DNA from: Candidatus Dormiibacterota bacterium
GTDB lineage: Bacteria; Chloroflexota; Dormibacteria; Aeolococcales; Aeolococcaceae
Reading direction: 5' to 3'
Assembly: GCA_036495095.1 (NCBI GenBank)
Contig: DASXNK010000043.1
Span: 1 to 45,564 of the forward strand
Length of the DNA stretch: 45,564 bases
Made by a program: the position numbers and the translations under genes
Part shown: in pieces, positions 26,344 to 41,474 of the stretch
Numbering within the stretch: the first letter of the stretch is position 1
Layout of the letters: every line of letters starts with the position of its first letter
Notes under the pieces: generated by a model
What the model saw: the letters and a program-made list of their open reading frames with translations, nothing else
Told to the model about the DNA's origin: nothing
Database searches by the model: none

Positions 26344-26359
26344 TCAAGAGGTGGGGTGT

Positions 26360-26395: not shown

Positions 26396-27199
26396 ATGAT
26401 CAATTCATCGCGGCTGGCGCCCGGGGCGCTGATGCTCGTCGCCGCCGCGGGCTGGGCGGCGCTGGCCACCGGCAGCGCACCGGCGTCGGCGCGGTCGACG
26501 CAGCCGGCGGGGGGCGCGACGATCTGGATCCAGACCATGGACTCCTGCAAGCAGGCCATCGGCGGCGCAGGCTACCAGCTCGTCGGCGCCGGCGTCTCGA
26601 TGAGCGCCGACACCCCGGCGGGGCAGAAGACCCGGGTGGCGAGCACCCCCAACTGCCCGCTGGAGCAGGGCGACTGCGCCGCCACGACCACCGGGTGCGT
26701 GAGCTTCGCCGGCGTCGCGGCGGGCACGTACACGATCCGCGAGACCAGGGCCCCGGCAGCCGACACCTCGAACCCCGAGGGCTACGCGCCCTGCGAGGGG
26801 GGCAGCGCCTGCCGCTCCGAGGTCGCCACCGTCACCGTCGACGCCGGCGGTGGGGTGCGGGCGACGGTCACCAACCTGTACCCCGACGGCGCCTCCGCCA
26901 CCTGGCCGGCCGGGGGTGGCCGCCGCGGCCATTCCGCCTATGCGGCCACCGCCGCCGACCCCGTGGTCTTCCACGACTTCGGCCTCGCCCCGCCCGGCCG
27001 CAGCGGCCAGTGCGACGGCGACTCCGACGCCGACGACCACCTCACCGGCTCTCCCAGCGGCCACTGCGCGTACCCGGAGGACCAGGAGGACGCGGCCTGC
27101 AAGCCCTACCCGTGGAGCTGCCAGTCCACGGCGAGCGGGCCCAGGGTGAGGCCGGCGGCCGACAGGGCCACCCCGGTCACGGTGCCGCAGAGCATCTGA
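26396..27199 (+). CDS. Secreted protein with SpaA / Cna-B-like domain
   Basis: A 267-residue exported protein. Signal peptide about 1-33 (GALMLVAAAGWAALATG ... PASA). Residues about 40-165 form a beta-rich domain ending in GTYTIRETRAPAADTSNPEGY, the hallmark of SpaA/Cna-B prealbumin-like folds, with six or more cysteines that probably form disulfides. The rest (SAYAATAADPVVFHDFGLAP, then CDGDSDADDHLTG) is Asp-rich and resembles a calcium-binding loop, without a sortase LPxTG motif or membrane anchor. ATG 26396 lies 7 nt after a good -10. The last 94 bp overlap the convergent PPTase gene. Confidence 0.72.
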   Translation: MINSSRLAPGALMLVAAAGWAALATGSAPASARSTQPAGGATIWIQTMDSCKQAIGGAGYQLVGAGVSMSADTPAGQKTRVASTPNCPLEQGDCAATTTGCVSFAGVAAGTYTIRETRAPAADTSNPEGYAPCEGGSACRSEVATVTVDAGGGVRATVTNLYPDGASATWPAGGGRRGHSAYAATAADPVVFHDFGLAPPGRSGQCDGDSDADDHLTGSPSGHCAYPEDQEDAACKPYPWSCQSTASGPRVRPAADRATPVTVPQSI

Positions 27200-27732
27200 G
27201 GCGCACGCTCGAGGCTGGCGGCGGCGTCGTCGAGCCCGGCGCCACAGGCCTTCACCGCCGCCTCCACCCGGGTCCACCAGCGCAGCAGCACCGCCGCCCG
27301 CTCGGCCGCCGGCGCGGCATCGACCGCCGCCCGCGCCCCGGCGGGCAGCAGGTCGGCGACCCCCAGCCCGGCGTCGGTGAGCGGCCGCAGCGGCTCGACG
27401 TCGACCCCCACGGGGCAGTCGTCGGAGAGGGCGACCGCGCACCAGCGGCCGCGCCGTGACAGGCTGAAGGCGGGGCCGGGCCCGGCGAGCACGGGCTTCC
27501 CGCCGGCGGCGGTGGTGATCGGGATCGACTCGGGCGCACCGCCGACGCGCTCGGCGAGCAGCCGGCGCAGCGCCCGGTGGGCGGCGAGGAAGGCGTCACG
27601 CTCGGCCGGCAGGGTGATGCGGGCGGCACGGCGCAGATCGTCGTGCCCCAGCCCCGACCGCCGGCCGCCGTCCGGGACGGAGTCGAGGTGCACGAGGTGC
27701 ACCTCGATCCGCGCCACCGCGACGTCGATCAT
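27106..27732 (-). CDS. 4'-phosphopantetheinyl transferase (Sfp type)
   Basis: Attaches the CoA-derived phosphopantetheine arm to a carrier-protein serine. The 208 residues contain the two metal/CoA motifs: VGVDVEPLRP (Asp111, Glu113) and WWTRVEAAVKACG (Glu157, Lys161). The upstream FSLSRRG replaces the usual SHS-type motif, so the His is missing. The ATG overlaps the NRPS stop as ATGA, which makes the NRPS carrier domain the obvious partner. The 3' 94 bp overlap the SpaA-like gene on the other strand. Confidence 0.9.
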   Translation of the reverse strand: MIDVAVARIEVHLVHLDSVPDGGRRSGLGHDDLRRAARITLPAERDAFLAAHRALRRLLAERVGGAPESIPITTAAGGKPVLAGPGPAFSLSRRGRWCAVALSDDCPVGVDVEPLRPLTDAGLGVADLLPAGARAAVDAAPAAERAAVLLRWWTRVEAAVKACGAGLDDAAASLERAPQMLCGTVTGVALSAAGLTLGPLAVDWQLHG

Positions 27733-30700
27733 CCGGGCAGGTGGACCGGCCCGGCCGGGATGCCCCGCCAGCGTCCCCCCGCGGGCAGGCTCTCGCCCTT
27801 CATCGCCAGCGACAGCGGATCGAGCATGGCGCCATCGGCCAGCTGGGCGTCGTAGAGCACCACCGCGCGGGCGCCGACGGTGCTGGCCCGCCCCAGGGTG
27901 ACGGTGGACATCTTCATCACCCGGTCCTCGAAGAGGTGGGTCTGCAGCGAGGCGGAGGCGCCGACGCAGGCGTCGTCCCCGACCCGCACCAGGTCGAACT
28001 CGGTGAGATAGGTGGTCTGCAGGCACACCCGCCGGCCCACCCGGGCTCCGAACAGGCGCAGCAGCGGACCGATCCACGGAGTGCCGGTGAGCACCCCCAG
28101 CAGCGCGGGCACGGCCACGCTCTCGTAGAGGCCGGTGACCAGCTCGCTGCGGCGCACGAACAGCGCCCAGAGCGGCTCGACGCGGGGAACGTAGCGGCCC
28201 ACCAGCAGCCACTTCAGCAGCACCACCAGCAGGGTCACGCCCAGGCCCGAGGCGAGGGCGACCACCGGGGTGGCGAGGATCAGCTCGATCGCGGAGCCGC
28301 GGCGGGCGAGGCGCAGCTCGACGGAGGCGGCGAGCAGGAGGGCGAGCGCGATCAGCGTCGCCGGCAGGGTGATACGGAAGTACTCGACGGCGAGCCGCGC
28401 CGTTACCCGCGCCGCCGATGGGCGGTAGGTGACCTCCTCGGAGAAGGCCTCGCTCGGCTGGCGGCGGGGGAGGAAGATCGCCGGCGAGCCCAGCCACGAG
28501 GTCTCCGCCTCGACCGGCCTCGCCGGCGCCACCGACTGCACTCCGATCAGGCTGCTGTCGCCCAGCCGGGTGTGGCTGCGCACCACCGCGGCGTTGCCGA
28601 CGAAGCAGCGGCGGCCGAGCTCGGTGCGTCCCAGCGCGATCGCGCCGTGGGCGAACGTGGCCGCGCCCACCGAGGCGAAGTCGGCGACGAAGCTCTCCTC
28701 GCCGAGGGTGAGCAGGTCGGGGTCGATGTGAGCGGCGGTCGAGACCTCCGAGCGCCTGCCGATGCGGGCGCCGAGCAGGCGCAGCCAGGGCACCGCGTAG
28801 AGGGTGGCGTAGAGGGTGTTGCTGAGCTCGAGGCTCATCGCCATCAGCCGGTCGGCGAACCACTTCCGCAGCCCCAGCGCGGAGCACAGCGGGTGGATGC
28901 CCGGCTCGGTGCGGGCGAGCACGAGGCGGCGGCCCGCGGCCACCAGCGCGCAGGCGGTGAGCGCCGTCACCGGCCCGGCCACCAGGGTCGAGGCGATCGC
29001 CGCGAGCAGGCCCCGGCGCGCCATCGCCAGCGTCACCAGCAGCAGGCCCGGCATCGCCATGACGAAGGGGAGCACCCCGAGCACCGCCACGCCGGCGGCG
29101 AACCCCGCACCCAGCGCCGGCGACCAGCGCCGCCCCTGGTGGCCGGCGGCCGCCATGGCGTCGAGCAGAGCGTCGCCCTCGGCGCTCGGCACCGCCGGCG
29201 ACCCGCCCCAGCTCTGTCCGTCGGGAAGCCGCTGGCCGCGGGCCAGCAGCGACTGGTCGGCGAGCCGGGACCCCGGCCCCATCTCGGCGCCGCCGACCAG
29301 CACCGAGCCGGTGCCGACCACCGCTCCGGCGCCGACCCGGACCGGGTCGAGGAGGAGCCAGCCGTCCTCGACGACGGCGGGCATCACGTCCACGCCGTAG
29401 CCGAGGCTGGCGCCGTCGCCGATCTCGGTGAGCCACGGGGTCTGGATCCGCTCGGTCGCGATCTGGCAGGAGTGGCCGATCCGCGCGCCGAGCAGGCGGA
29501 GGTAGGCGGCCATCAGCGGCGAGCCCGCGAGCAGGCGCAGCGGTGCCAGCGCGAGCAGCCGGGTGAACATCCACCAGCGCACGTGGGTGGCGCCCCACAG
29601 CGGGTGGCGTCCAGGCCGGATCCGCGCGGCCACGGTCCAGCGCCCGGCGACCGGCAGCACCAGGGCGGTGACCAGGAAGCCGAGGGGCAGGAGCAGCGCG
29701 CCCAGCACCAGCCGCGAGGCCGTCAGGCTGCCGCCGGACCGCGCCAGCAGCCAGGCGGCGGGAGCGCCGAGGATCAGCACCAGCGCGTAGAGCCCGGCCA
29801 GCTGGACCGCGCCGGCGGCGAGCACGCGGCCACCGCGGTGACGCAGCGCCGCCGGCCGGGGGCCCGTGGCGGCGCCGTCGTGCGGCCCCACCGCCGCCAG
29901 CGTCGAGAGCGCCTCGAGGTGGTCGGCGAGCGCCCGGATGGTCGGTCGCTCGTAGAGGTCGCCGATCCCCACCGAGCGCGACTCGGGCCGGCGGCGGAGG
30001 CGCGAGACCACCATCGCGGCGAACAGCGAGTGGCCGCCGAGGTCGAGGAAGAAGTCCGCCTCCACGGAGATGTCGGGGTGGCCGAAGACCTCGGTCCAGA
30101 CCGCCAGCAGGTCGGCCTCGAGCGGGGTCGCCGGGGCCACGACCTGGTCGGCGCGCAGCCCCAGCCGCGGCGACACCGGAGCGGGGAGCTGGGTGCGGGC
30201 GACCTTCGAGCCGGCCAGCGTGGGCAGGCGGTCGAGCACCTCGATGAACGCCGGCACCATGTACGCGGGGAGGCGGCGGCGCAGCCGGTCGTGGAGCCTC
30301 CCGCGCAGCTCCGCCTCCCCGGAGGGTCGGCGCAGGGTGACATGGGCGACCAGGTCGGTGGCCACGCCGTCGACCTCCAGGGCCGAGACCACCACGTTCT
30401 CCACCGCCTCGTCCTCGCGGACCACCTCCTCGATCTCGCCGAGCTCGATGCGGTAGCCGCGGATCTTCACCTGGGCGTCGAGGCGGCCGAGGAACTCGAT
30501 CTCCCCGGAGGCGGACAGACGGCCGAGGTCGCCGGTGCGATACATCCGCGACCCCGGGGCGGTGAGATCGGCGACGAACCGCTCGGCGGTGAGCTCGGGA
30601 CGGTTCACATAGCCCTGGGCGACGCCGGGGCCGCCGATGCAGATCTCCCCGGGCTCGCCGGCGGGCACCGGGCGCAGCCGCTCGTCGCACAGCCGGACGG

Positions 30701-31715
30701 TGTACGAGGGGAGGGGCCGGCCGATCGTCACCGCGCGGTCGGGGCGAAGCTCGCACCAGGTGGCGGTGACGGTGGTCTCGGTGGGGCCGTAGGTGTTGAG
30801 CATCCGCCGCCCGGGGCGGCTCCAGCGCTGCACCAGGTCCCGCGGGCAGGCCTCGCCGCCGACGATCAGGGTGCGCAGCGAGGGCACCTCGCGGTCGAGG
30901 GTGGCGAGCAGCGTGGGCACGCAGCAGAGCACCGTCACCCCGCGCTCGACCAGGAGGTCGGCGAGCTGGGGGCCGAGCCGGCAGCCGTCGGTGGGCCCCG
31001 CCACCACCGTTGCGCCGGCCATCCACGCCGGCCACATCTCCTCGACGGAGAAGTCGAAGGCGATGGTCATCCCCTGGTACACGCGGTCCTGTGCGGTCAC
31101 GTCGTAGATCGGCGTGACCACATCGAGGAAGTCGCAGATGTTGCCGTGGCTGACCGCAACACCCTTGGGACGGCCGCTCGACCCGGAGGTGTAGATGATG
31201 TACGCGAGGCCATCGCGGCCGGCGTCGGCGTCCGGCCGGGTGGCGGGCACGCCGGCGAGGCAGGAGGGTTCGTCGAGCTCGAGCGCCGGGCAGGGCAGCG
31301 AGCCCGCCGCGGCGGCGGCGAGGGCGGCGCTGGTGAGCACCACCCGGAGGCCGGCATCGGTGGCGATGAAGGCGATCCGGTCGGCGGGGTGGCCCGGGTC
31401 GATGGGGACGAAGGTCGCCCCCGCCTTGAGCACGCCCAGCACCGCGGCGTAGGTCTCGAGCGAGCGCTGCAGGAGGATGCCGACCCGGTCGCCGGGGGCG
31501 ACCCCGAGGGCGATCAGCCGGTGGGCGACGCGGTTGCCCTGGCGGTCGAGCTCGCGGTACCGGGCCTGGCGGTCGCCACACTCCACGGCGACCGCGTCGG
31601 GCACGCGGTCGGAGGTGGTCTCGAAGTGGTGGTGGAGCCGTCCGACACGCCCCCGGACCGGGCTCGACGCCGCCCAGCCCAGGCGCGACGCAGACGTCGG
31701 ATCGGACACTGCCAT
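27729..31715 (-). CDS. Pls/PosA-type non-ribosomal peptide synthetase (A-T-membrane/LbH)
   Basis: A 1328-residue single-module synthetase. The adenylation domain covers about 25-510 (YTSGSSGRPKG 175-185, FDFSVEEMW near 221, NTYGPTETT near 307, YRTGDLGRL 392-400, A10 Lys near 504). The carrier domain follows with FFLDLGGHSL, phosphopantetheine Ser563. Next come a hydrophobic region near 635-690 and a long part with left-handed beta-helix hexapeptide-like repeats (LLGARIGHSCQIATER, LLGARIGRRSEVSTAAHID, LFGARVGRRVC) interleaved with further membrane segments. There is no condensation or thioesterase domain. This matches the terminal-domain architecture of poly-lysine synthetase-like Pls/PosA proteins. 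ATG 31715 has an AGGAAGGGGG tract upstream. The substrate is not determined. Confidence 0.9.
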   Translation of the reverse strand: MAVSDPTSASRLGWAASSPVRGRVGRLHHHFETTSDRVPDAVAVECGDRQARYRELDRQGNRVAHRLIALGVAPGDRVGILLQRSLETYAAVLGVLKAGATFVPIDPGHPADRIAFIATDAGLRVVLTSAALAAAAAGSLPCPALELDEPSCLAGVPATRPDADAGRDGLAYIIYTSGSSGRPKGVAVSHGNICDFLDVVTPIYDVTAQDRVYQGMTIAFDFSVEEMWPAWMAGATVVAGPTDGCRLGPQLADLLVERGVTVLCCVPTLLATLDREVPSLRTLIVGGEACPRDLVQRWSRPGRRMLNTYGPTETTVTATWCELRPDRAVTIGRPLPSYTVRLCDERLRPVPAGEPGEICIGGPGVAQGYVNRPELTAERFVADLTAPGSRMYRTGDLGRLSASGEIEFLGRLDAQVKIRGYRIELGEIEEVVREDEAVENVVVSALEVDGVATDLVAHVTLRRPSGEAELRGRLHDRLRRRLPAYMVPAFIEVLDRLPTLAGSKVARTQLPAPVSPRLGLRADQVVAPATPLEADLLAVWTEVFGHPDISVEADFFLDLGGHSLFAAMVVSRLRRRPESRSVGIGDLYERPTIRALADHLEALSTLAAVGPHDGAATGPRPAALRHRGGRVLAAGAVQLAGLYALVLILGAPAAWLLARSGGSLTASRLVLGALLLPLGFLVTALVLPVAGRWTVAARIRPGRHPLWGATHVRWWMFTRLLALAPLRLLAGSPLMAAYLRLLGARIGHSCQIATERIQTPWLTEIGDGASLGYGVDVMPAVVEDGWLLLDPVRVGAGAVVGTGSVLVGGAEMGPGSRLADQSLLARGQRLPDGQSWGGSPAVPSAEGDALLDAMAAAGHQGRRWSPALGAGFAAGVAVLGVLPFVMAMPGLLLVTLAMARRGLLAAIASTLVAGPVTALTACALVAAGRRLVLARTEPGIHPLCSALGLRKWFADRLMAMSLELSNTLYATLYAVPWLRLLGARIGRRSEVSTAAHIDPDLLTLGEESFVADFASVGAATFAHGAIALGRTELGRRCFVGNAAVVRSHTRLGDSSLIGVQSVAPARPVEAETSWLGSPAIFLPRRQPSEAFSEEVTYRPSAARVTARLAVEYFRITLPATLIALALLLAASVELRLARRGSAIELILATPVVALASGLGVTLLVVLLKWLLVGRYVPRVEPLWALFVRRSELVTGLYESVAVPALLGVLTGTPWIGPLLRLFGARVGRRVCLQTTYLTEFDLVRVGDDACVGASASLQTHLFEDRVMKMSTVTLGRASTVGARAVVLYDAQLADGAMLDPLSLAMKGESLPAGGRWRGIPAGPVHLPG

Positions 31716-31866
31716 CTTCGTCCGGAACCCCCTTCCTGACAATCGAGAGAATGCTCGTGGGACCGCTTGTCGGGCCATCGGCTACAACGCAGTCGGGGGG
31801 AGCTTCTTGCGCGCTGGCACTGGCCCGAGATGACAGTCCCGAATAGGCGATGAAGATGAGGTCAGG

Positions 31867-31924: not shown

Positions 31925-34015
31925 TCAGCGGCCGACGGCGATCACCACCGTGTCGCCGGCCCGCAGGCCCGATGTGACCTCGGTGCGCGCCGGGTCGCCG
32001 GCACCGATCGTCACCGGCCGGGCCACCGTCCCGCCGCCCTCGCGGGGGACGAGGACGTAGATCGCCGAGCCGGAGGTGTGGATCGCGCTCGTGGGCACGG
32101 TGAGCACCCCGGAGACCTCCTGGACGACGATGCCCATCTGGGCGCTGGCGCCGGGATGGAGGTCGGGATGCTCGCCCCCGATGGCGGCGGTGACGGTGAA
32201 GGTGGCCACCCCGGCGTTGACCAGCGCGGCGGGCGCGATCCCGGTCACGGCGCCGACCACCTGCTCGCCGCCGCCCGCGGGGGTGACGTGGACGCGGTCA
32301 CCGGCGCGGATCAGCCGCAGCTGGGCGTCGCTCACCGGGCCACTGACCTGGTAGGCGGTGGGGGTGAGCAGGACGACGGCGTGGGTGAGGTTGGCGACGC
32401 CGTTGTTCCCCGCGGTGGGCCCGCTGCTCGCCGCGGTGGCCAGCAGCGCGCCGCCGCCGACCGACACGGTGCCGGTGCCCACGCCGGCCACGCTGCCGCT
32501 GCCGATCGCCTGGCCCGGGGCGACGTTCACCTGCTCGACGATACCGTCCACCGGGGCCACCAGCACCGCCGAGGCCACCGCGTCCTGGGCGGCGACCACC
32601 TGGGACTGGTCGGCCTGCACCTGTGCCTCGTCCATGGCCACCTGCTGGGGGATGGTCCCGTTCATCACGGCACTCAGCTGGGCCAGCGAGTTCTGCAGCT
32701 GGATGGTGGCGGTGGTGACCTGGGCCTGGGCCTGGTGGGTGCCCTGCACCGTCCGGGTCTGCGCCTGGACGACGGAGTTGGAGTTGGTCTGCTGCGCCGA
32801 CTGGAACGCGACCCGGGCGTTCTGGAGCTGGATCGTGGCGGCGGCGAGCTGCGCCTGGGCCTGGTCGACGCCGCTCTGCAGCTGGGCCTGGGCCTGGGCG
32901 ACCTGCGCCAGCCCCTGGCGGGTCGACCCCTGCAGCTGGACGGCGGCGCTGCGCAGCTGCACCTGCGCGGTGGCGAGCTGCTGCTCCGCCTGGCCGGCGT
33001 CGAGCTGCAGCCGGGCCTGCGCCTGCACCACCTGGCTCTGGGCGACGGCGGCGGCGCCCTCGTCCTTGACCAGGGTCTGCTGGTCGCCGTTGACCCGCTG
33101 CTGGTCGGAGGTGACCGCCTGGCGGTCGGCCTGGCACTGGGCGGTGGCCGGGGGATGGGCGCAGTCGGCGTTCTCGCGGCCCTGGTCCTGGTGGAGCTGG
33201 CCGAGGTCGGTGCCGAGGCCGTGCTGGTCGACCGCCACCAGGGCGGCGGCGGCGGCGAGCTGCACCTGCGCGGCCTGCACCGCGGCGCCGTCGAGGCGCT
33301 GGACGTCGCCGAGGTTGCGCTGGCCGGCGGTGACCGCCACCTGAGCCGTCGCCACCGCCGCCTGGCCCTGCGCCTGCGCCTGGGCGAAGGTCGCGGCGGC
33401 GAGGGCGACGGTCTCCTGGCCGGAGATCTGGACGTCGAAGAGGCTGCGCTGGTCGGCGGCGACGGTGGCCTCGTCGGCGCCGATCTGTCCCTGGGCCGCG
33501 GCGAGGGCGGTCTGCAGCGCGATCTGCGCCGCCTGCACCACCTCCTGGCCGAGCTGGGCGGTGTCGGAGAGGTTGACCTGGGCGGGCCCCAGCGCCCCCC
33601 GCGCCGACCCCACCGCCCCCTCGGCGGTCACCTCCCCGGTGTTGTTGGGCCCTCCCTCGTCCTGGCGGAGCCTCGCCTGGGCGGAGGCCAGCGCCGAGCG
33701 GGACTGGTCGAGCTGCGCCACCACCCCGGTGGTGTCGAGGGAGGCGAGGATGCCGCCCGCGGCCACGTGCTGCCCCGCCTGCACGGCGACGCTGGCGATA
33801 TGGCCGCCGGTGCCGAAGTCGAGGTCGGTCTCGCTCGCCGGCTGCAGCGTGCCGGTGACGTCCACGGTCTGGGTCACGGTGCCGCGCTGCACCTGGGCGG
33901 TGCGGAGGTTGGACGGGGCGGGCCCGCGGCGGGCGACGAGCACGCCGATGATGGCGACGACGAGCAGCAGCGCCGCCGGGATCATCCAGCGGCGCGGCCG
34001 CAGCCTGGCGGCCAT
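31925..34015 (-). CDS. Membrane-fusion (HlyD/MacA-like) adaptor with very long coiled-coil hairpin
   Basis: A periplasmic-adaptor-type protein of 696 residues with one N-terminal membrane helix (12-27). The lipoyl domain is split: the first half near 55-95 (GHIASVAVQAGQHVAAGGIL), the second near 483-505 (APVDGIVEQVNVAPGQAI), with beta-barrel and membrane-proximal regions after it (GDRVHVTPAGGGEQVVGAV). Between the halves lie about 380 residues of Ala/Gln-rich helix with repeated AQAQLQ-like units. Cys285 and Cys294 flank a Pro-Pro turn at its exact middle. The start is 34015 (AGGAAGGG 9 nt upstream); 34024 is possible. No ABC or RND partner is adjacent. Confidence 0.85.
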   Translation of the reverse strand: MAARLRPRRWMIPAALLLVVAIIGVLVARRGPAPSNLRTAQVQRGTVTQTVDVTGTLQPASETDLDFGTGGHIASVAVQAGQHVAAGGILASLDTTGVVAQLDQSRSALASAQARLRQDEGGPNNTGEVTAEGAVGSARGALGPAQVNLSDTAQLGQEVVQAAQIALQTALAAAQGQIGADEATVAADQRSLFDVQISGQETVALAAATFAQAQAQGQAAVATAQVAVTAGQRNLGDVQRLDGAAVQAAQVQLAAAAALVAVDQHGLGTDLGQLHQDQGRENADCAHPPATAQCQADRQAVTSDQQRVNGDQQTLVKDEGAAAVAQSQVVQAQARLQLDAGQAEQQLATAQVQLRSAAVQLQGSTRQGLAQVAQAQAQLQSGVDQAQAQLAAATIQLQNARVAFQSAQQTNSNSVVQAQTRTVQGTHQAQAQVTTATIQLQNSLAQLSAVMNGTIPQQVAMDEAQVQADQSQVVAAQDAVASAVLVAPVDGIVEQVNVAPGQAIGSGSVAGVGTGTVSVGGGALLATAASSGPTAGNNGVANLTHAVVLLTPTAYQVSGPVSDAQLRLIRAGDRVHVTPAGGGEQVVGAVTGIAPAALVNAGVATFTVTAAIGGEHPDLHPGASAQMGIVVQEVSGVLTVPTSAIHTSGSAIYVLVPREGGGTVARPVTIGAGDPARTEVTSGLRAGDTVVIAVGR

Positions 34016-34137: not shown

Positions 34138-34159
34138 CGCGTGAACCGCAGTTCACGCG
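34138..34159 (-). terminator. Hairpin spanning the ppk1 stop codon
   Basis: CGCGTGAAC and GTTCACGCG, a perfect 9-bp stem with a 4-nt loop, overlaps the TGA stop of ppk1 (34153-34155). No T-run follows. It may mark the end of the phn-ppk1 operon. Confidence 0.45.
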
Positions 34160-36285
34160 CCCGCCCGGCCGGTGCCGATGATCTCGATGACATGCTCCTC
34201 GGCGCCGCGGGCGAGCTCGGCGAGGACCTCGTGCGCGTTGATCCCGCGGCGGCGCGGGACCCGGTGCCACACCCCGTCGGCGTCGAGCTCCCAGGCGAGC
34301 TGGTCGTCGGCGAGGAGCACGTCCACGATGGTCGCGAGCCGAATCTGCAGCCGGGGGTCCAGCACCGGTGCCACCGCCTCGACGCGGTCGTCGAGGTTGC
34401 GGGCCATGATGTCCGCGGAGCCGATGTACCACTCCGCCCCGTCACCGCTGCCGAAACCGTAGATGCGCGAGTGCTCGAGCCAGCGGCCCACCAGCGAGCG
34501 CACCCGGATGTGCTCGGACATCCCCGGCACGCCGGGACGCAGCGAGCAGGTGCTGCGCACGATGAGCTCCACCTGCGCGCCCGCGGTCGAGGCCGCGTAG
34601 AGCGCCTCGATGATCTCCGGATCGACGACGTGGTTGGCCTTGATGACGATGCGGCCGCGGTTCCGCGCCTGGCGGCCGATCAGCTCCAGCAGGCCGGGGC
34701 GCAGCGTCCTCGGCGCCACCAGCAGCCGCCGGTAGCGTCGCTGCCGGCTGTACCCGGTGAGGTAGTTGAAGAGGTCGGTGACGTCGGCGCCGAGCTCGGG
34801 GTCGCAGCTGAACAGCCCCAGGTCCTCGTAGAGGCGGGCCGTCTGCGGGTTGTAGTTGCCGGTGCCGATGTGGCAGTAGCGGCGGATCGCGCCGCCCTCG
34901 CGACGCACCACCAGCGTGGTCTTGGCGTGGGTCTTCAGCCCCACCATGCCGTGGACCACATGCACCCCGGCGCGCTCCAGCACCCGCGCCCAGGCGATGT
35001 TCGCGGCCTCGTCGAAGCGGGCCTTCAGCTCCACCAGGGCGACCACCTGCTTGCCCGCCTCGGCGGCGCCGATCAGGGCGCGGACGATCGCGCTGTCGCC
35101 GTCGGAGGTGCGGTAGAGGGTCTGCTTGATGGCGAGCACGTCGGGGTCGCGCGACGCCTGCTCGATGAAGGCCTCGACCGAGGTGGCGAAGGACTCATAG
35201 GGGAGATGGACGAGCACGTCGCCGTCCCGGATCACCCGGAAGATGTCCGCCGGCCCGCCCTCGTCGTCACCGCGCAACCGGGGCTGGGTGACCGGCTCGT
35301 GGGGCGGGTCCTTCAGCTCCGGCCGGTCGATCCTGTACAGGCCCCAGAGGCCGCCGAGGTCGAGCGGCCCCTCCACCCGGTACACCTCGTCGGGCCCGAT
35401 CTCCAGCTCGCGGACGAGCAGCTCGAGCACCTCGCCGGACATCGTGGCGTCGACCTCCAGCCGCATCACCGTCGGCGAGTGGCGCCGCTTCTGGAGGATG
35501 TCCTCGACCGCGCTCATCACGTCCTCGCCGCGCTCGTCGGCGAGGAAGTCGGCGTTGCGGGTCACCCGGAAGGGGTGGGTGCCGAGCACCCGCATCCCCG
35601 GGAAGAGCCGGTCGAGGTGGGCGGCGATCACCTCCTCGAGGGGGACGAACCGCTCGTGGTCGGGGAGCACGATGAACCGCGGCAGCAGCGGGGGCACCTT
35701 GACCCGGGCGATCCGGGTCACCTCGCCGTCGGGGTCGGCGACCACCACGGCGAGGTTGAGCGACAGGCTGCTGATGTAGGGGAACGGATGCGCGGGGTCG
35801 ACCGCGAGCGGGGTGAGCACGGGGAAGACCTGCTCGTCGAAGACGGTGTCGAGGTGGCGCCGATCCTCGTCGTCGAGGGACGCGTGGGTGCTGTAGCGCA
35901 ACCCGACCTCCTGGAGGCACTCGGTGAGCGCCCCGAAGGCGCGGCCCTGCTCCTCGTAGAGGTCGAGCACCCGCCGGCGGATCAGCCCCAGCTGCTCGGC
36001 CGGGGTGAGACCGTCGGCCGAGCGGGTGCGCACCCCCGCGGCGCGCCGCGCATGGAGGCCGGCGACCCGTACCGCGAAGAACTCGTCGAGGTTGGTGCTG
36101 AAGATCGCCAGGTACTTGGCCCGCTCCAGGGGGCGCTGCTCCGGGTCCTGGGCAAGGGCGAGCACCCGGGCGTTGAACTCGAGCCAGCTGAGGTGCCGGT
36201 TGAGGAACCGCGAGCCGGAGGGCGCGGCGGGTCGCTGCTCGCCGTCGACGGCGGCGCCGGTGGTGGTCCCGGTCTCCGCGGTCAC
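34153..36285 (-). CDS. ppk1: Ppk1, polyphosphate kinase
   Basis: Reversibly polymerises the gamma-phosphate of ATP into polyphosphate. The 710 residues are normal length. The N-terminal domain begins FLNRHLSWLEFNARVLALA, then KYLAIFSTNLDEFFAVRVAG. The phospho-acceptor His is in VHGMVGLKTHAKTTLV, and the second active-site His in RYCHIGTGNYNPQTARLYED. LGLFSCDPELGADVTDLFNYL is typical PPK1. The GTG start overlaps the phoU stop (GTGA). It is the last gene of the phosphonate operon, so phosphate freed by C-P lyase could be stored as polyphosphate. Confidence 0.97.
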   Translation of the reverse strand: MTAETGTTTGAAVDGEQRPAAPSGSRFLNRHLSWLEFNARVLALAQDPEQRPLERAKYLAIFSTNLDEFFAVRVAGLHARRAAGVRTRSADGLTPAEQLGLIRRRVLDLYEEQGRAFGALTECLQEVGLRYSTHASLDDEDRRHLDTVFDEQVFPVLTPLAVDPAHPFPYISSLSLNLAVVVADPDGEVTRIARVKVPPLLPRFIVLPDHERFVPLEEVIAAHLDRLFPGMRVLGTHPFRVTRNADFLADERGEDVMSAVEDILQKRRHSPTVMRLEVDATMSGEVLELLVRELEIGPDEVYRVEGPLDLGGLWGLYRIDRPELKDPPHEPVTQPRLRGDDEGGPADIFRVIRDGDVLVHLPYESFATSVEAFIEQASRDPDVLAIKQTLYRTSDGDSAIVRALIGAAEAGKQVVALVELKARFDEAANIAWARVLERAGVHVVHGMVGLKTHAKTTLVVRREGGAIRRYCHIGTGNYNPQTARLYEDLGLFSCDPELGADVTDLFNYLTGYSRQRRYRRLLVAPRTLRPGLLELIGRQARNRGRIVIKANHVVDPEIIEALYAASTAGAQVELIVRSTCSLRPGVPGMSEHIRVRSLVGRWLEHSRIYGFGSGDGAEWYIGSADIMARNLDDRVEAVAPVLDPRLQIRLATIVDVLLADDQLAWELDADGVWHRVPRRRGINAHEVLAELARGAEEHVIEIIGTGRAGA

Positions 36286-37953: not shown

Positions 37954-39116
37954 CGTGCCCCCACGCCGGCGGCGACGGCGCCCAGCACCGGATGCCCCGC
38001 CACCCAGGTCTGGCGCACCACCGGGTGGCCGGCGACGCACTCCACCGCCACCAGGTCGGCACGGCAGCCCACCTCGAGGCGCCCCCGGTCGGTGAGGCCG
38101 GCCAGCCGGGCCGGACCCTCGGTCACCAGCGCCGCCGCCGCCGCCCAGTCGCAGCCGGTGTCGGCGGCGATCAGGTAGGCGGCGACCAGCAGCGAGGGCG
38201 GGTGGTAGTCGGAGGCGAGGGCGTCGAGGCAGCCGTCGGCGAGGGCGCCGCGCGCCGAGAGGTTGCCGTAGTGGGAGATCCCCCGCCGGGCGTTGGGGGC
38301 GCCCATGAGGATGCCCAGGCCTGCCTCGCGGGCGGCGTGGGCGGCCTCCAGGGTGACCGGGAACTCGGCGATGACCGCGCCCAGGCCGGCGGCGCGTCGC
38401 ACCGTCGCCGCGGAGTCGTCGTCGTGGGAGGCGAGGGCGACGCCGGCGTTGCGCGCCAGCCGGGCGACCCGCTCGCGCACCTCCGCGGCCCGCCCCTGGC
38501 CACGCTGCTTCTCCAGCAGGCGCAGCCGCAGCTCCACGTCGACGTCGCCGTCGGCGTGCTCGGCGAGCTGGGTGTAGTAGCCCCGCCAGGCGGTCACATC
38601 GGTGAACTGGCCCTGCCCCGGGGTGTGGTCCATGTACGAGATCAGCCCGAGCGCCCCGCCGGCGGCGATCTCCGGAGCCGCCTCGACGGTGGTGCCGGTG
38701 ACGTCGACGCGCAGGTGCAGGCGGTGGTCGACGCGCAGCCCTGACCGCTGGGCGACGATCGCGGCGGCGACGGTGCGGGCGCGGTCGATGCTGCGGTGCT
38801 TGACCGCGTCGTCCTCGAGCGAGATGCAGAGCATGTGGGTGGTGATGCCGTGGCCCGCGAGCTCGCCGTCGAGGTCGTGGAGCGCCGCCTCGAGGGGCAG
38901 CACCGTGGTCGGCCGCGGCCGGGCCCGCTGCTCCAGGCAGTCGGAGTGGAGGTCGACCAGGCCGGGGAGCAGGTCGAGGTCGCCGAGGTCGACGCGGGTG
39001 GCGGCGGCGGGCGGCTCCGGGCCCACCCCGGCGATGTGCCCGTCCTCGACCGCGACCCACCAGCCGCGGCGGGTGGCACCGGCGATGGGGAGGCGGGCGC
39101 CGCGGTACGCGATCAT
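37950..39116 (-). CDS. phnM: PhnM, ribose 1-methylphosphonate 5-triphosphate diphosphatase
   Basis: Removes pyrophosphate from alpha-D-ribose 1-phosphonate 5-triphosphate to give the substrate of PhnJ. It is an amidohydrolase-fold enzyme of 388 residues. The metal motif DLHSDCLEQRARPRPT has His57 and Asp59. Other typical segments are GHGITTHML, VALASHDDDS, ILMGAPNARRGISHYGN and the Asp in ALASDYHPPSLL. The ATG overlaps the phnL stop (ATGA) and the gene ends inside the start of the HD gene. Confidence 0.96.
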   Translation of the reverse strand: MIAYRGARLPIAGATRRGWWVAVEDGHIAGVGPEPPAAATRVDLGDLDLLPGLVDLHSDCLEQRARPRPTTVLPLEAALHDLDGELAGHGITTHMLCISLEDDAVKHRSIDRARTVAAAIVAQRSGLRVDHRLHLRVDVTGTTVEAAPEIAAGGALGLISYMDHTPGQGQFTDVTAWRGYYTQLAEHADGDVDVELRLRLLEKQRGQGRAAEVRERVARLARNAGVALASHDDDSAATVRRAAGLGAVIAEFPVTLEAAHAAREAGLGILMGAPNARRGISHYGNLSARGALADGCLDALASDYHPPSLLVAAYLIAADTGCDWAAAAALVTEGPARLAGLTDRGRLEVGCRADLVAVECVAGHPVVRQTWVAGHPVLGAVAAGVGAR

Positions 39117-39790
39117 GCCGCCACCAGGGCGCCCTCGCGCATGGTCAGCACCTCGTCGACCAGGCCGCCGCCGGTGGGCACGTCGTGGAAGACGGCGAGG
39201 ATGGTGGCGCCCTCGCGCTTGCGGTCCAGCACCGCCCCCAGCGCCCGCTCGCGCCGGTGGTGGTCGAGCGACGCGGTGATCTCGTCGAGGAGCAGCAGGG
39301 GCCGGGGGAGGGCGAGGCTGCGGGCGATGTTCACGACCTGGCGCTCGCCTCCGCTGAAGGTGGCCGGGGGTGCCTCCAGCAGCCGCTCGGCGAGGCCGAG
39401 GCGGAGCAGCCGGTCGGCGGCGTCGTCGCGCGCCACCCCCGCGGCGGCGACCAGGTCGACCGCCGCGATCCGGGGGATGGCCTCGAGGAACTGGGTGGCC
39501 AGCGACATCAGACCGCGGCGCGCTGCGAGGATCTCGCGGGCGCCGGCGGCGGCGACGTCGAGGTCGCTACCGCGGTGGCGGAGCACGATGCTGCCGGCGT
39601 CGCAGTGGTAGGTGCCGTGGATGCAGCGGAGCAGCGACGACTTGCCCGACCCGCTCTCCCCGGTGATCACCGTGCAGCTTCCCGGCGCCACCTCCAGGCT
39701 GACACCGCGCAGCACCTCGACCCGGAGGCCGTCGAGGAGGTGACGGGTGAAGCCCTTGCGGAGCCCGCCGACACTCACCCCCACGCTCAC
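39113..39790 (-). CDS. phnL: PhnL, ABC-type ATPase of the C-P lyase system
   Basis: A 225-residue ATP-binding protein required for the C-P lyase core (with PhnI). Walker A is GESGSGKSS (44-52), YHCDAGSIVLRHRGSDLD is typical PhnL, the signature motif reads FSGGERQ, and Walker B is LLLLDEITASLD. The GTG start at 39790 overlaps the phnK stop (GTGA). Unlike transport ABC proteins it has no permease of its own; PhnE and PhnC form the transporter. Confidence 0.95.
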   Translation of the reverse strand: MSVGVSVGGLRKGFTRHLLDGLRVEVLRGVSLEVAPGSCTVITGESGSGKSSLLRCIHGTYHCDAGSIVLRHRGSDLDVAAAGAREILAARRGLMSLATQFLEAIPRIAAVDLVAAAGVARDDAADRLLRLGLAERLLEAPPATFSGGERQVVNIARSLALPRPLLLLDEITASLDHHRRERALGAVLDRKREGATILAVFHDVPTGGGLVDEVLTMREGALVAA

Positions 39791-40599
39791 AGCTGCGAGC
39801 TGACCAGCAGCTGGGTGTACGGGTGCTGGGGGTCGGCGAGGAGCTGGTCGCAAAGACCCTCCTCGATCACCCGTCCCCGGTGCATCACCAGCAGCCGCTG
39901 GGCCAGGGTGCGGATCACCCCCAGGTCGTGGGAGACCACCAGGACCGCCACCCGGGTCTCCTCGTGGATGCGGCGGACCAGGTCGAGGATGCGCGCCTGG
40001 ACGCTGACGTCGAGGCCGGAGGTGGGCTCGTCGAGAAGCAGCACCCCCGGCGAGTTGGCCAGTGCCCGGGCGAGCTGCACCCGCTGGCGCATGCCCCCGC
40101 TGTAGAGGCTGACCCGGGTGTCGGCGCGGTCGAGGGGCAGCTCCACCTCGGCGAGCAGGTCGAGCACCCGGCGGCGGATGTCGTCGAAGCCGCGCCACCC
40201 CGAGGCGAGCAGCCGCACCGCCACGTTGCCGCCGGCGGAGACGTCGAGGTCGAGGCCCTGCTGCGGGGTCTGGTAGACGATGCCGAGGCGCTCGGCGCGC
40301 ACCCGGCGGCGGGCGCCGCCGCGGCTGTCGGTGACGTCCTCGCCGCCCACCAGCACCCGGCCGCGGGTGGGGGCGAGGTCGAGGTTGGCGCAGCCCAGCG
40401 CCGTCGACTTCCCGCTGCCGGACTCGCCGACGATGCCGAGCACCTCTCCGGGGCGCACGTCGAGGCTGAGCCGCCGGCAGCCGATCACCGCGCCGCAGGC
40501 GGCGCAGCGGGCCGGCGCCTCGGCCGGGTCGGAGCACTCCGCGCAGCCGGCGCCGTAGCGCACGGTGACGTCGCGGAGCTCGAGGGCGGCCGCGCTCAT
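39787..40599 (-). CDS. phnK: PhnK, ABC-type ATPase of the C-P lyase complex, with zinc-ribbon insertion
   Basis: A 270-residue ATPase that binds the PhnGHIJ core. Walker A GESGSGKST is at 58-66, the signature LYSGGMRQRVQLARAL is intact, Walker B is VLLLDEPTSGLD and the H-loop VVSHDLG. The N-terminus has an insertion between YGAG and the first helix: C19-x2-C22, nine residues, C32-x2-C35 and then C41 (GCAECSDPAEAPARCAACG), which looks like a small zinc-binding loop. The E. coli protein lacks it. ATG overlaps the phnJ stop (ATGA). Confidence 0.95.
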   Translation of the reverse strand: MSAAALELRDVTVRYGAGCAECSDPAEAPARCAACGAVIGCRRLSLDVRPGEVLGIVGESGSGKSTALGCANLDLAPTRGRVLVGGEDVTDSRGGARRRVRAERLGIVYQTPQQGLDLDVSAGGNVAVRLLASGWRGFDDIRRRVLDLLAEVELPLDRADTRVSLYSGGMRQRVQLARALANSPGVLLLDEPTSGLDVSVQARILDLVRRIHEETRVAVLVVSHDLGVIRTLAQRLLVMHRGRVIEEGLCDQLLADPQHPYTQLLVSSQL

Positions 40600-41474
40600 C
40601 GGATCCGCCCCTCGCGGCGGCGGCGGCACCAGTCGGTGTCGGAGCAGATCAGCCGGGGCGGTGCACCGCCGCCGGAGCACTCGACCCGGAAGCTGGTCGC
40701 CGACCCGCAGCGGCTGCAGGGGGCGGCGAAGCGCTCGGCCTCGAAGGGGCGGTCGTCGAAGGCGAGGGGGCGCACCGCGGTGTAGGGGGGCACCGCGTAC
40801 ACCGTGGCCTCGCGGCCGGCGCCGAAGAGCGAGATGTGGGGCGCGCCGTCGAGCCGCCCCAGGTCGTGGCGGGGGATCGGCGAGGGGCTCATCACGTAGC
40901 CACCCTCGACCTCGACGGGGTGGCTGTGGGTGAACGAGGCGTGGTCGTGGTGGACCAGGTCCTCGTAGAGGTAGAGCCAGACCCCGGAGTAGTCGCCCTC
41001 GGCGTGCATCCGCCGGGTCACCGAGGGCCGGGGGTCGACGATCCGCAGCGGGTCGGCGATCGGCACCTGGAACACCAGCACCACCTCCTCGTCGAGCTCC
41101 TCCTCGGGGATGCGGTGGCGGGTCTGGATCAGCGTCGCCCGCGGGGTCTCGGTGGTCGCGCGGGCGCCCGTGGTGCGGGTCACCAGGTCGCGGATGCCGG
41201 CGGCGTTGAGGCTGTCGTCGTCGCCCTGGTCGATCACCTTCACGCTGTCCTCGGGCACCACCACCGCGAGCGTGACCTGGAGGCCGCCGCTGCCCCACCC
41301 GCGCGCCACCGGCATCTCCCGGGAGGCGAAGGGGATCTGGTGGCCGGGGATGCAGAGCGCCTTGAGCAGGGCCCGGCGGACCTCGCGCTTGGCGGTCTCG
41401 TCGAGGTAGGCGTGGTTGTAGCCGCGCCGCCCGGCGGCGCCGCCGGTGAGCAGCCCGTCGAGCGCCGCGCTCAC
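40596..41474 (-). CDS. phnJ: PhnJ, carbon-phosphorus lyase
   Basis: The radical SAM enzyme that breaks the C-P bond of ribose 1-phosphonate 5-phosphate. The protein has 292 residues. GYNHAYLDETAKREVRRALL, PGHQIPFASREMPVARGWG and the His-rich HHDHASFTHSHPVEVEGGYV are conserved PhnJ blocks. The cluster cysteines Cys253, Cys256 and Cys277 and the radical-forming Cys283 keep the E. coli spacing (241, 244, 266, 272) to within one residue; an extra Cys266 is present. ATG overlaps the phnI stop region (4 nt). Confidence 0.97.
   Translation of the reverse strand: MSAALDGLLTGGAAGRRGYNHAYLDETAKREVRRALLKALCIPGHQIPFASREMPVARGWGSGGLQVTLAVVVPEDSVKVIDQGDDDSLNAAGIRDLVTRTTGARATTETPRATLIQTRHRIPEEELDEEVVLVFQVPIADPLRIVDPRPSVTRRMHAEGDYSGVWLYLYEDLVHHDHASFTHSHPVEVEGGYVMSPSPIPRHDLGRLDGAPHISLFGAGREATVYAVPPYTAVRPLAFDDRPFEAERFAAPCSRCGSATSFRVECSGGGAPPRLICSDTDWCRRRREGRIR

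Follow-up and report, generated by a model that had tools for sequence, protein, structure and literature searches.

A MacA-type adaptor with a very long predicted hairpin and a cysteine pair at its tip from an apparently monoderm member of the Dormibacterota

Gene content of the locus

The window, that is, the whole stretch of 45,564 nucleotides that was analysed, contains on its minus strand an open reading frame coding for a MacA-like adaptor protein (Table 1). A second in-frame start codon, ATG 34051, would lengthen the protein by 12 residues. The records of relatives place the host, a soil bacterium, in Candidatus Dormibacterota, although some are still labelled 'Chloroflexi bacterium'. 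On the minus strand, the genes follow each other in the order phoU, ppk1, adaptor, Pls/PosA synthetase and PPTase, with a gap of 146 bp between the adaptor and synthetase genes. The synthetase contains an A domain, a carrier and a hexapeptide-type carboxy-terminal part, and the small PPTase gene (27106–27732, minus strand) comes directly after it. ARAGORN calls a tRNA-Asp at 29286–29378 (minus strand), inside the Pls-like coding sequence, a call that is most likely spurious. The minus strand also has, at 39116–41474 and upstream of phoU and ppk1, phosphonate (C-P lyase) genes, among them phnJ and a frame that contains PhnL; the PhnL-like frame of this cluster is the only ABC-ATPase-like frame within the window. 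Promoter- or terminator-like sites were not found between the genes of the locus, a result that is weakly informative at 73% GC.

Table 1. Features of the adaptor gene, its product and its neighbours in the window
Feature	Positions	Strand	Basis and remarks
MacA-like adaptor ORF, 696 aa + stop	31925..34015	-	ATG 34015; RND_mfp just below cut-off; MacA is the nearest solved structure
N-terminal transmembrane helix (predicted), residues 11-28	33932..33985	-	AlphaFold2 helix and hydrophobic sequence
N-arm basal helix, residues 96-119	33659..33730	-	AlphaFold2
N-arm distal helix, residues 127-285, ~24 nm	33161..33637	-	AlphaFold2
Tip C285-AHPPATAQ-C294 (CX8C)	33134..33163	-	Sequence and AlphaFold2; family-conserved at hairpin midpoint
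C-arm distal helix, residues 292-452, ~24 nm	32660..33142	-	AlphaFold2
C-arm basal helix, residues 456-481	32573..32650	-	AlphaFold2
ppk1, polyphosphate kinase	34153..36285	-	Pfam/NCBIfam; upstream neighbour of adaptor start, kept in same-genus genome G002 (L047)
Pls/PosA-family poly-amino-acid synthetase	27729..31778	-	TIGR02353, 579 bits (cut-off 423); downstream neighbour of adaptor

The location of the adaptor and synthetase genes on the same strand, close together and with the adaptor first, the synthetase score above its family cut-off and the PPTase next to it would all fit an adaptor dedicated to exporting the cationic poly-amino acid that the Pls/PosA-like synthetase would make, perhaps with ppk1 also involved. 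We consider this highly improbable. In the same-genus genome G002, the orthologous adaptor gene also follows ppk, while its end (L046) is followed by homologues of the window genes at 26351 and 24465, with neither a Pls nor a PPTase gene in between. The Pls family cut-off is passed in the host genome only (one of 61 genomes, and none of the 60 relatives), whereas the adaptor family is present in at least 31 of the 61, which makes the link a recent one. Absent from the G002 locus and limited to a single genome, the Pls/PPTase pair was most likely inserted recently and would not explain why the adaptor exists. A role mainly devoted to the Pls product was rejected, since Pls is missing both at this spot in G002 and in the other relatives searched.

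Domain organisation and family assignment

An AlphaFold2 model of the adaptor, made with 26 homologous sequences, has a mean pLDDT of 78.7 and a pTM of 0.38, so that its overall shape is uncertain, as expected for a long thin monomer. From the amino-terminus, the modelled protein contains a transmembrane helix, a split lipoyl domain, a giant hairpin, a beta-barrel and a membrane-proximal domain, the part following the hairpin being rich in beta-structure. Matches to family models are weak, although significant: the Pfam models Biotin_lipoyl_2 (E-value 1.5e-5) and HlyD_3 (1e-3) both score below their curated cut-offs, and the NCBIfam model RND_mfp gives 92.6 bits against a cut-off of 94.9. A search of the PDB with an alignment-based profile ranks MacA chains first (9qgy/5nik, E-value 2e-42). 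With the model as query, MacA is also on top in Foldseek (E-value 6e-16), while VIA-align gives it a Z-score of 18.6, in a tie with AcrA. Spr0693 (PDB entry 5xu0) is matched by both the sequence profile and the structure searches. Judged by these models, the protein belongs to the periplasmic adaptor or membrane fusion protein superfamily (RND_mfp, HlyD_3, Biotin_lipoyl_2). Its nearest characterised relative is MacA by profile and Foldseek, with the VIA-align tie to AcrA, and it is a variant of the known MacA-type adaptor.

E. coli MacA, from the MacAB-TolC system (PDB entries 5nik, 9qgy and 3fpp), shares with the window adaptor the order of domains; besides giving the best profile and structure match, it resembles it in that relatives of the window adaptor adjoin MacB-type ABC transporters. 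Unlike MacA, the window adaptor has a cysteine-capped, proline-rich tip that lacks the RLS pattern for docking to TolC, its genome contains no TolC, and no transporter gene adjoins its own. The initial annotation had the arms longer than those of a typical MacA, which is borne out: the MacA stem measures 7 nm (70 Å, PMC5985334), while the predicted hairpin measures about 28 nm, about fourfold more. Spr0693 (Streptococcus pneumoniae) and YknX (Bacillus) are similar in that they serve MacAB-like pumps of bacteria lacking an outer membrane, but the alpha-barrel of Spr0693 is 5.6 nm (56 Å) high (PMC5768738) and thus much shorter than the hairpin with its tip cysteine pair. EmrA and HlyD also have a long hairpin splitting the lipoyl domain, and one long two-cysteine relative from the host genome (L013:4629-8681, contig C133; arms of 151 and 155 residues) adjoins a gene for an EmrB-like DHA2 MFS protein and not an ABC transporter. 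However, the TolC partner of EmrA and HlyD is absent from the host genome, and their family models score far below cut-off on the window adaptor.

Predicted structure of the hairpin

Between the lipoyl halves, the model contains about 386 residues, nearly all of them helical, in agreement with the roughly 380 helical residues first proposed. The upward helix (N-arm) and the downward helix (C-arm) are connected by a tip turn formed by residues 286–291, and pLDDT values around the tip are 81–93 in blocks of ten residues. Near the base of the hairpin, low-confidence breaks at residues 120–126 and 453–455 face each other (pLDDT below 50 for residues 123–128 and 452–455), leaving continuous distal helices of about 160 residues (24 nm) on a base section of 24–26 residues. 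An alpha-helix rises 1.5 Å per residue, and at this rise the whole hairpin would be about 28 nm long and the distal helices 24 nm. The initial annotation had given arms of about 185 residues, or about 28 nm if fully helical; the total length holds, while the uninterrupted arm does not. In structural alignments, residues 132–444 match the extended chemoreceptor hairpin of 2ch7, with 308 residues aligned, and residues 94–482 match PrgA; on the basis of these alignments, the hairpin is modelled as extended and not folded back. Structure prediction, the check suggested at the outset, thus yields a continuous distal helical hairpin with the cysteines at its tip, to which structural alignment adds the extended form.

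Hydrophobic heptad periodicity is weak in both arms: the periodograms peak at 3.58 for the C-arm and 3.60 for the N-arm, neither significantly. Across the family, mean arm lengths taken modulo 7 give an R of 0.45 (p about 0.004, with 12 periods tested on related sequences), and heptad quantisation of arm length is only suggestive.

The cysteine pair at the tip

The 696-residue adaptor contains just two cysteines, Cys285 and Cys294, in the sequence CAHPPATAQC. In the model, the upward helix ends with Cys285, and Cys294 is the third residue of the downward one. They lie at the midpoint of the hairpin, where the initial annotation had put them, with 191 residues separating them from the last residue of the first lipoyl half, an aspartate, and 193 from the second half.

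Outside Dormibacterota, homologues occur in Acidimicrobiia, Cellulomonas, Pseudonocardia, Herbiconiux and a few more groups. In 139 homologues from Dormibacterota, Actinomycetota and a few others, the length of the segment separating the lipoyl halves was measured and its cysteines were located. The hairpin contains two cysteines in 90 of them, none in 46, six in two and four in one; an odd number never occurs (0 of 139), which is evidence that the cysteines work as pairs. Of 46 adaptors from Dormibacterota, 40 have the pair, and 39 of these 40 contain no further cysteine from 60 residues before the hairpin through to the carboxy-terminus. The spacing at the tip ranges from CX5C to CX32C in Dormibacterota and reaches CX235C elsewhere, with no conserved histidine, aspartate or extra cysteine in the tips listed. 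Members without cysteines mostly have short hairpins, with 54–68 residues between the lipoyl halves. Two actinobacterial adaptors (L100:4348-7005 and L111:5833-7773) contain three symmetric cysteine pairs, one in a central CX3-5C turn and the other two in CX8C turns that share a similar PSS-EC motif. The arrangement looks like a duplication of the entire hairpin into an M shape.

The even count of cysteines favours a disulfide. An even count would fit any paired use, and instead of an intramolecular staple the cysteines might provide a metal site, a thiol or redox switch or a link between neighbouring subunits. VKOR was not found in the host genome, and of four DsbA-family hits both readable ones look cytosolic; no disulfide-forming machinery was thus identified, which is in keeping with such uses. 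Against a metal site, the variable spacing and the lack of additional conserved ligands suit a covalent staple better, and the proline-rich turns between helix ends place, in the predicted secondary structure, both cysteines at facing positions. We regard these other uses as unlikely.

Equal arms in homologues of different length

In 27 non-redundant Dormibacterota adaptors, the arms range from 75 to 281 residues, and the two arms of a protein are nearly equal: the right arm minus the left is between -1 and +4 residues in all but one, the exception being the longest, at +15 (Pearson correlation 0.999). The median absolute difference is 2 residues, whereas the minimum in 10000 random placements is 30. 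Over 71 non-redundant two-cysteine homologues from all phyla, the arms correlate with a Spearman coefficient of 0.92, and the observed centring is reached by none of 5000 random placements. Beyond Dormibacterota, a minority of the two-cysteine homologues are clearly off-centre, partly through automatic misreading of the anchors or of repeats. An antiparallel hairpin demands that its arms be equal and co-vary, so that this symmetry is evidence for the hairpin independent of structure prediction. In the sequences of the two phyla, the arm lengths appear to change together while the cysteine cap stays at the tip, and both tip cysteines and arm symmetry can be taken as traits of the family and not as peculiarities of the window gene. 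The longest of these proteins, an adaptor of 926 residues from a member of the same order (L042:1378-4155), has arms of 281 and 296 residues, which would exceed 40 nm each if fully helical.

In a quick tree calculated without the hairpin, long-armed members are found in several separate groups (the window adaptor, 191 residues; C133 and C41, 151 and 144; L042, 281; L110 and L113, 160), suggesting that elongation may have occurred repeatedly; the supports of the forks are modest, and the window gene is on a long branch.

The long two-cysteine adaptors of Actinomycetota (Cellulomonas, Pseudonocardia; for instance L115, L120 and L153) are similar in their hairpins, mostly centred on the midpoint, and in their linkage to ABC genes. 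They differ in having disordered Ser/Thr/Pro linkers and large tip loops, and in that a second, short adaptor without cysteines usually opens the operon, followed by an ABC ATPase, a permease-sized gap and the long adaptor. Operons with two adaptors, the long one with a Ser/Thr/Pro-rich tip loop, were observed at L115, L120, L131-L135, L140-L142, L151, L153-L155, L158 and L161. In the AlphaFold model of the long Cellulomonas humilata adaptor (L120, mean pLDDT 66), a short basal hairpin is followed on both sides by low-confidence linkers of about 45 residues and then by a distal hairpin with arms of about 50 residues each, with cysteines 201 and 264 near its end. As the long arms of Actinomycetota include disordered linkers, a rigid tube is not general to the whole family. 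The arms in Dormibacterota are compatible with helix over most of their length, and the models put their hairpin closer to one rigid rod than the Actinomycetota type. Peptidoglycan-binding domains were not found in the short adaptors or tip loops; a Pfam scan of nine proteins gave adaptor domains only, plus one sub-threshold M23 match on the lipoyl part.

Candidate partner transporters

In 57 of 60 loci from public genomes, an ABC ATPase gene is located within 3 kb of the adaptor gene. The window copy, between ppk1 and the Pls/PosA-family synthetase gene, has no ABC, RND or TolC gene adjacent to it, as had been noted from the start, and the adjacency of MacA and MacB is not found here; this sets the gene apart from its family, whose members nearly always adjoin a MacB-type ABC transporter. 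The host genome encodes at least six other relatives (contigs C211, C29, C194, C82, C133 and C41), and the search for partner transporters that had been proposed finds ABC-MacB sets beside two of these. On C211, the operon consists of the adaptor, ABC_tran and MacB_PCD+FtsX genes, while on C82 the genes for an ABC ATPase and a MacB_PCD permease come immediately after the adaptor gene. The C211 paralogue is the nearest in the host genome (49% identical), and its right arm has 194 residues, as compared to 193 in the window protein. MacB-type permeases without a neighbouring adaptor are also present on contigs C31 and C26. The most likely partner of the window copy is an ABC-MacB pair from another locus, such as that of the arm-matched paralogue on C211.

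The missing transporter gene, the long branch and the absence of the Gly-rich carboxy-terminal tail that the ABC-linked relatives have would also be consistent with an orphan relic, either a duplicate that drifts without its ABC-MacB genes or one in which the long hairpin has collapsed on itself. This is very unlikely. Compared with the same-genus ortholog, dN/dS is 0.27 over 171 codons, which is purifying selection and indicates that the gene is maintained; in addition, the frame is intact, the symmetric arms and the cysteines are conserved, and so is the place beside ppk in G002.

Envelope type and TolC docking

Neither TolC-type (OEP, PF02321) nor Omp85 proteins were found in the host assembly (4.38 Mb in 216 contigs, 96.6% complete), while seven control genomes were positive for each; the host therefore appears to be monoderm. 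The two phyla in which the two-cysteine family is found are largely monoderm. Adaptors dock onto TolC with an R-x3-L-x6-S (RLS) pattern at their tip (PMC4446572), and this pattern is absent around the tips of all 90 two-cysteine homologues, including that of the window. The initial annotation had suggested a hairpin able to cross a thick wall or envelope; of these two, the wall is retained and the envelope is not.

Discussion

We think it rather probable that the window protein is a disulfide-capped, MacA-type adaptor of a MacAB-like export system in an apparently monoderm host, and the data suggest a stapled tube or stalk that extends into or through the cell wall. MacA-like adaptors form hexameric funnels on MacB, also in monoderms, where Spr0693 and YknX, adaptors of MacAB-like pumps, form hexamers, and the Spr0693 pump was modelled to rise 154 Å over the membrane, which is comparable to the inner wall zone (PMC5768738, PMC5985334). 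As in MacA, six copies of the window adaptor would form a ring on the MacB permease, and their hairpins, side by side, would make a tube or stalk of alpha-helices about 28 nm long, or four times the length in MacA. An intramolecular disulfide between the two cysteines would staple the hairpin at its free end, and the stapled, proline-rich tip would prevent fraying of this coiled-coil end where no TolC caps it. Since the tip would dock to no TolC, we propose that it is located in or beyond the peptidoglycan, where cargo may be released away from the membrane or the pump may be anchored in the wall. With the lipoyl and barrel layers added to the 28 nm of the hairpin, the protein would rise about 33 nm or more, which, given the thickness of a typical Gram-positive wall, would be enough to enter or cross it. 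Paired insertions would lengthen both arms together, so that reach could evolve without loss of register.

A more far-reaching proposal, which we put forward tentatively and hold to be possible rather than probable, is that there is a hitherto undescribed class of MacAB-type pumps in monoderms of two phyla in which the adaptor itself would be the trans-wall conduit, a hexameric helical tube in which the disulfide-capped end replaces TolC and whose length (about 11 nm to over 40 nm) would be adjusted to the local wall through paired insertions. The hairpin may instead be a stalk or anchor and not a conduit, its tip gripping or sensing the wall or a wall protein and relaying or receiving the strokes of MacB/FtsX, as FtsX does with hydrolases. 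MacB-family proteins are mechanotransmitters, and purified YknX binds peptidoglycan (PMC5985334); the distal hairpin of the Cellulomonas protein, on its disordered linkers, would be incapable of forming a closed tube, and tip loops of up to 235 residues are present in some Actinomycetota. On the other hand, solved MacA-like adaptors, including Spr0693 from a monoderm, are closed hexameric tubes (PMC5768738), no wall-binding Pfam domain was found in the proteins scanned, and the Dormibacterota arms are compatible with helix over most of their length. We judge a stalk or anchor to be possible, if somewhat doubtful.

No description of long-hairpin adaptors capped by cysteines was found in the literature searched, which mostly did not extend to subscription journals. 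As far as this literature goes, what is new is the rule that the family follows in two phyla: arms that differ greatly in length between proteins but are symmetric, and a cysteine pair at the tip. Reviews treat it as an open question why MacA-like adaptors are present in bacteria lacking an outer membrane (PMC5985334, PMC4446572). With its equal arms and cysteine cap kept through several-fold changes in length, the hairpin amounts to a natural ruler experiment, and viewing it as a ruler predicts that selection maintains reach towards or through the wall and not docking to a channel. Arm symmetry and the even number of cysteines are simple rules that can be tested and by which the family can be identified in genomes, and together they offer a direct route to testing whether the pumps of monoderm bacteria discharge beyond the wall.
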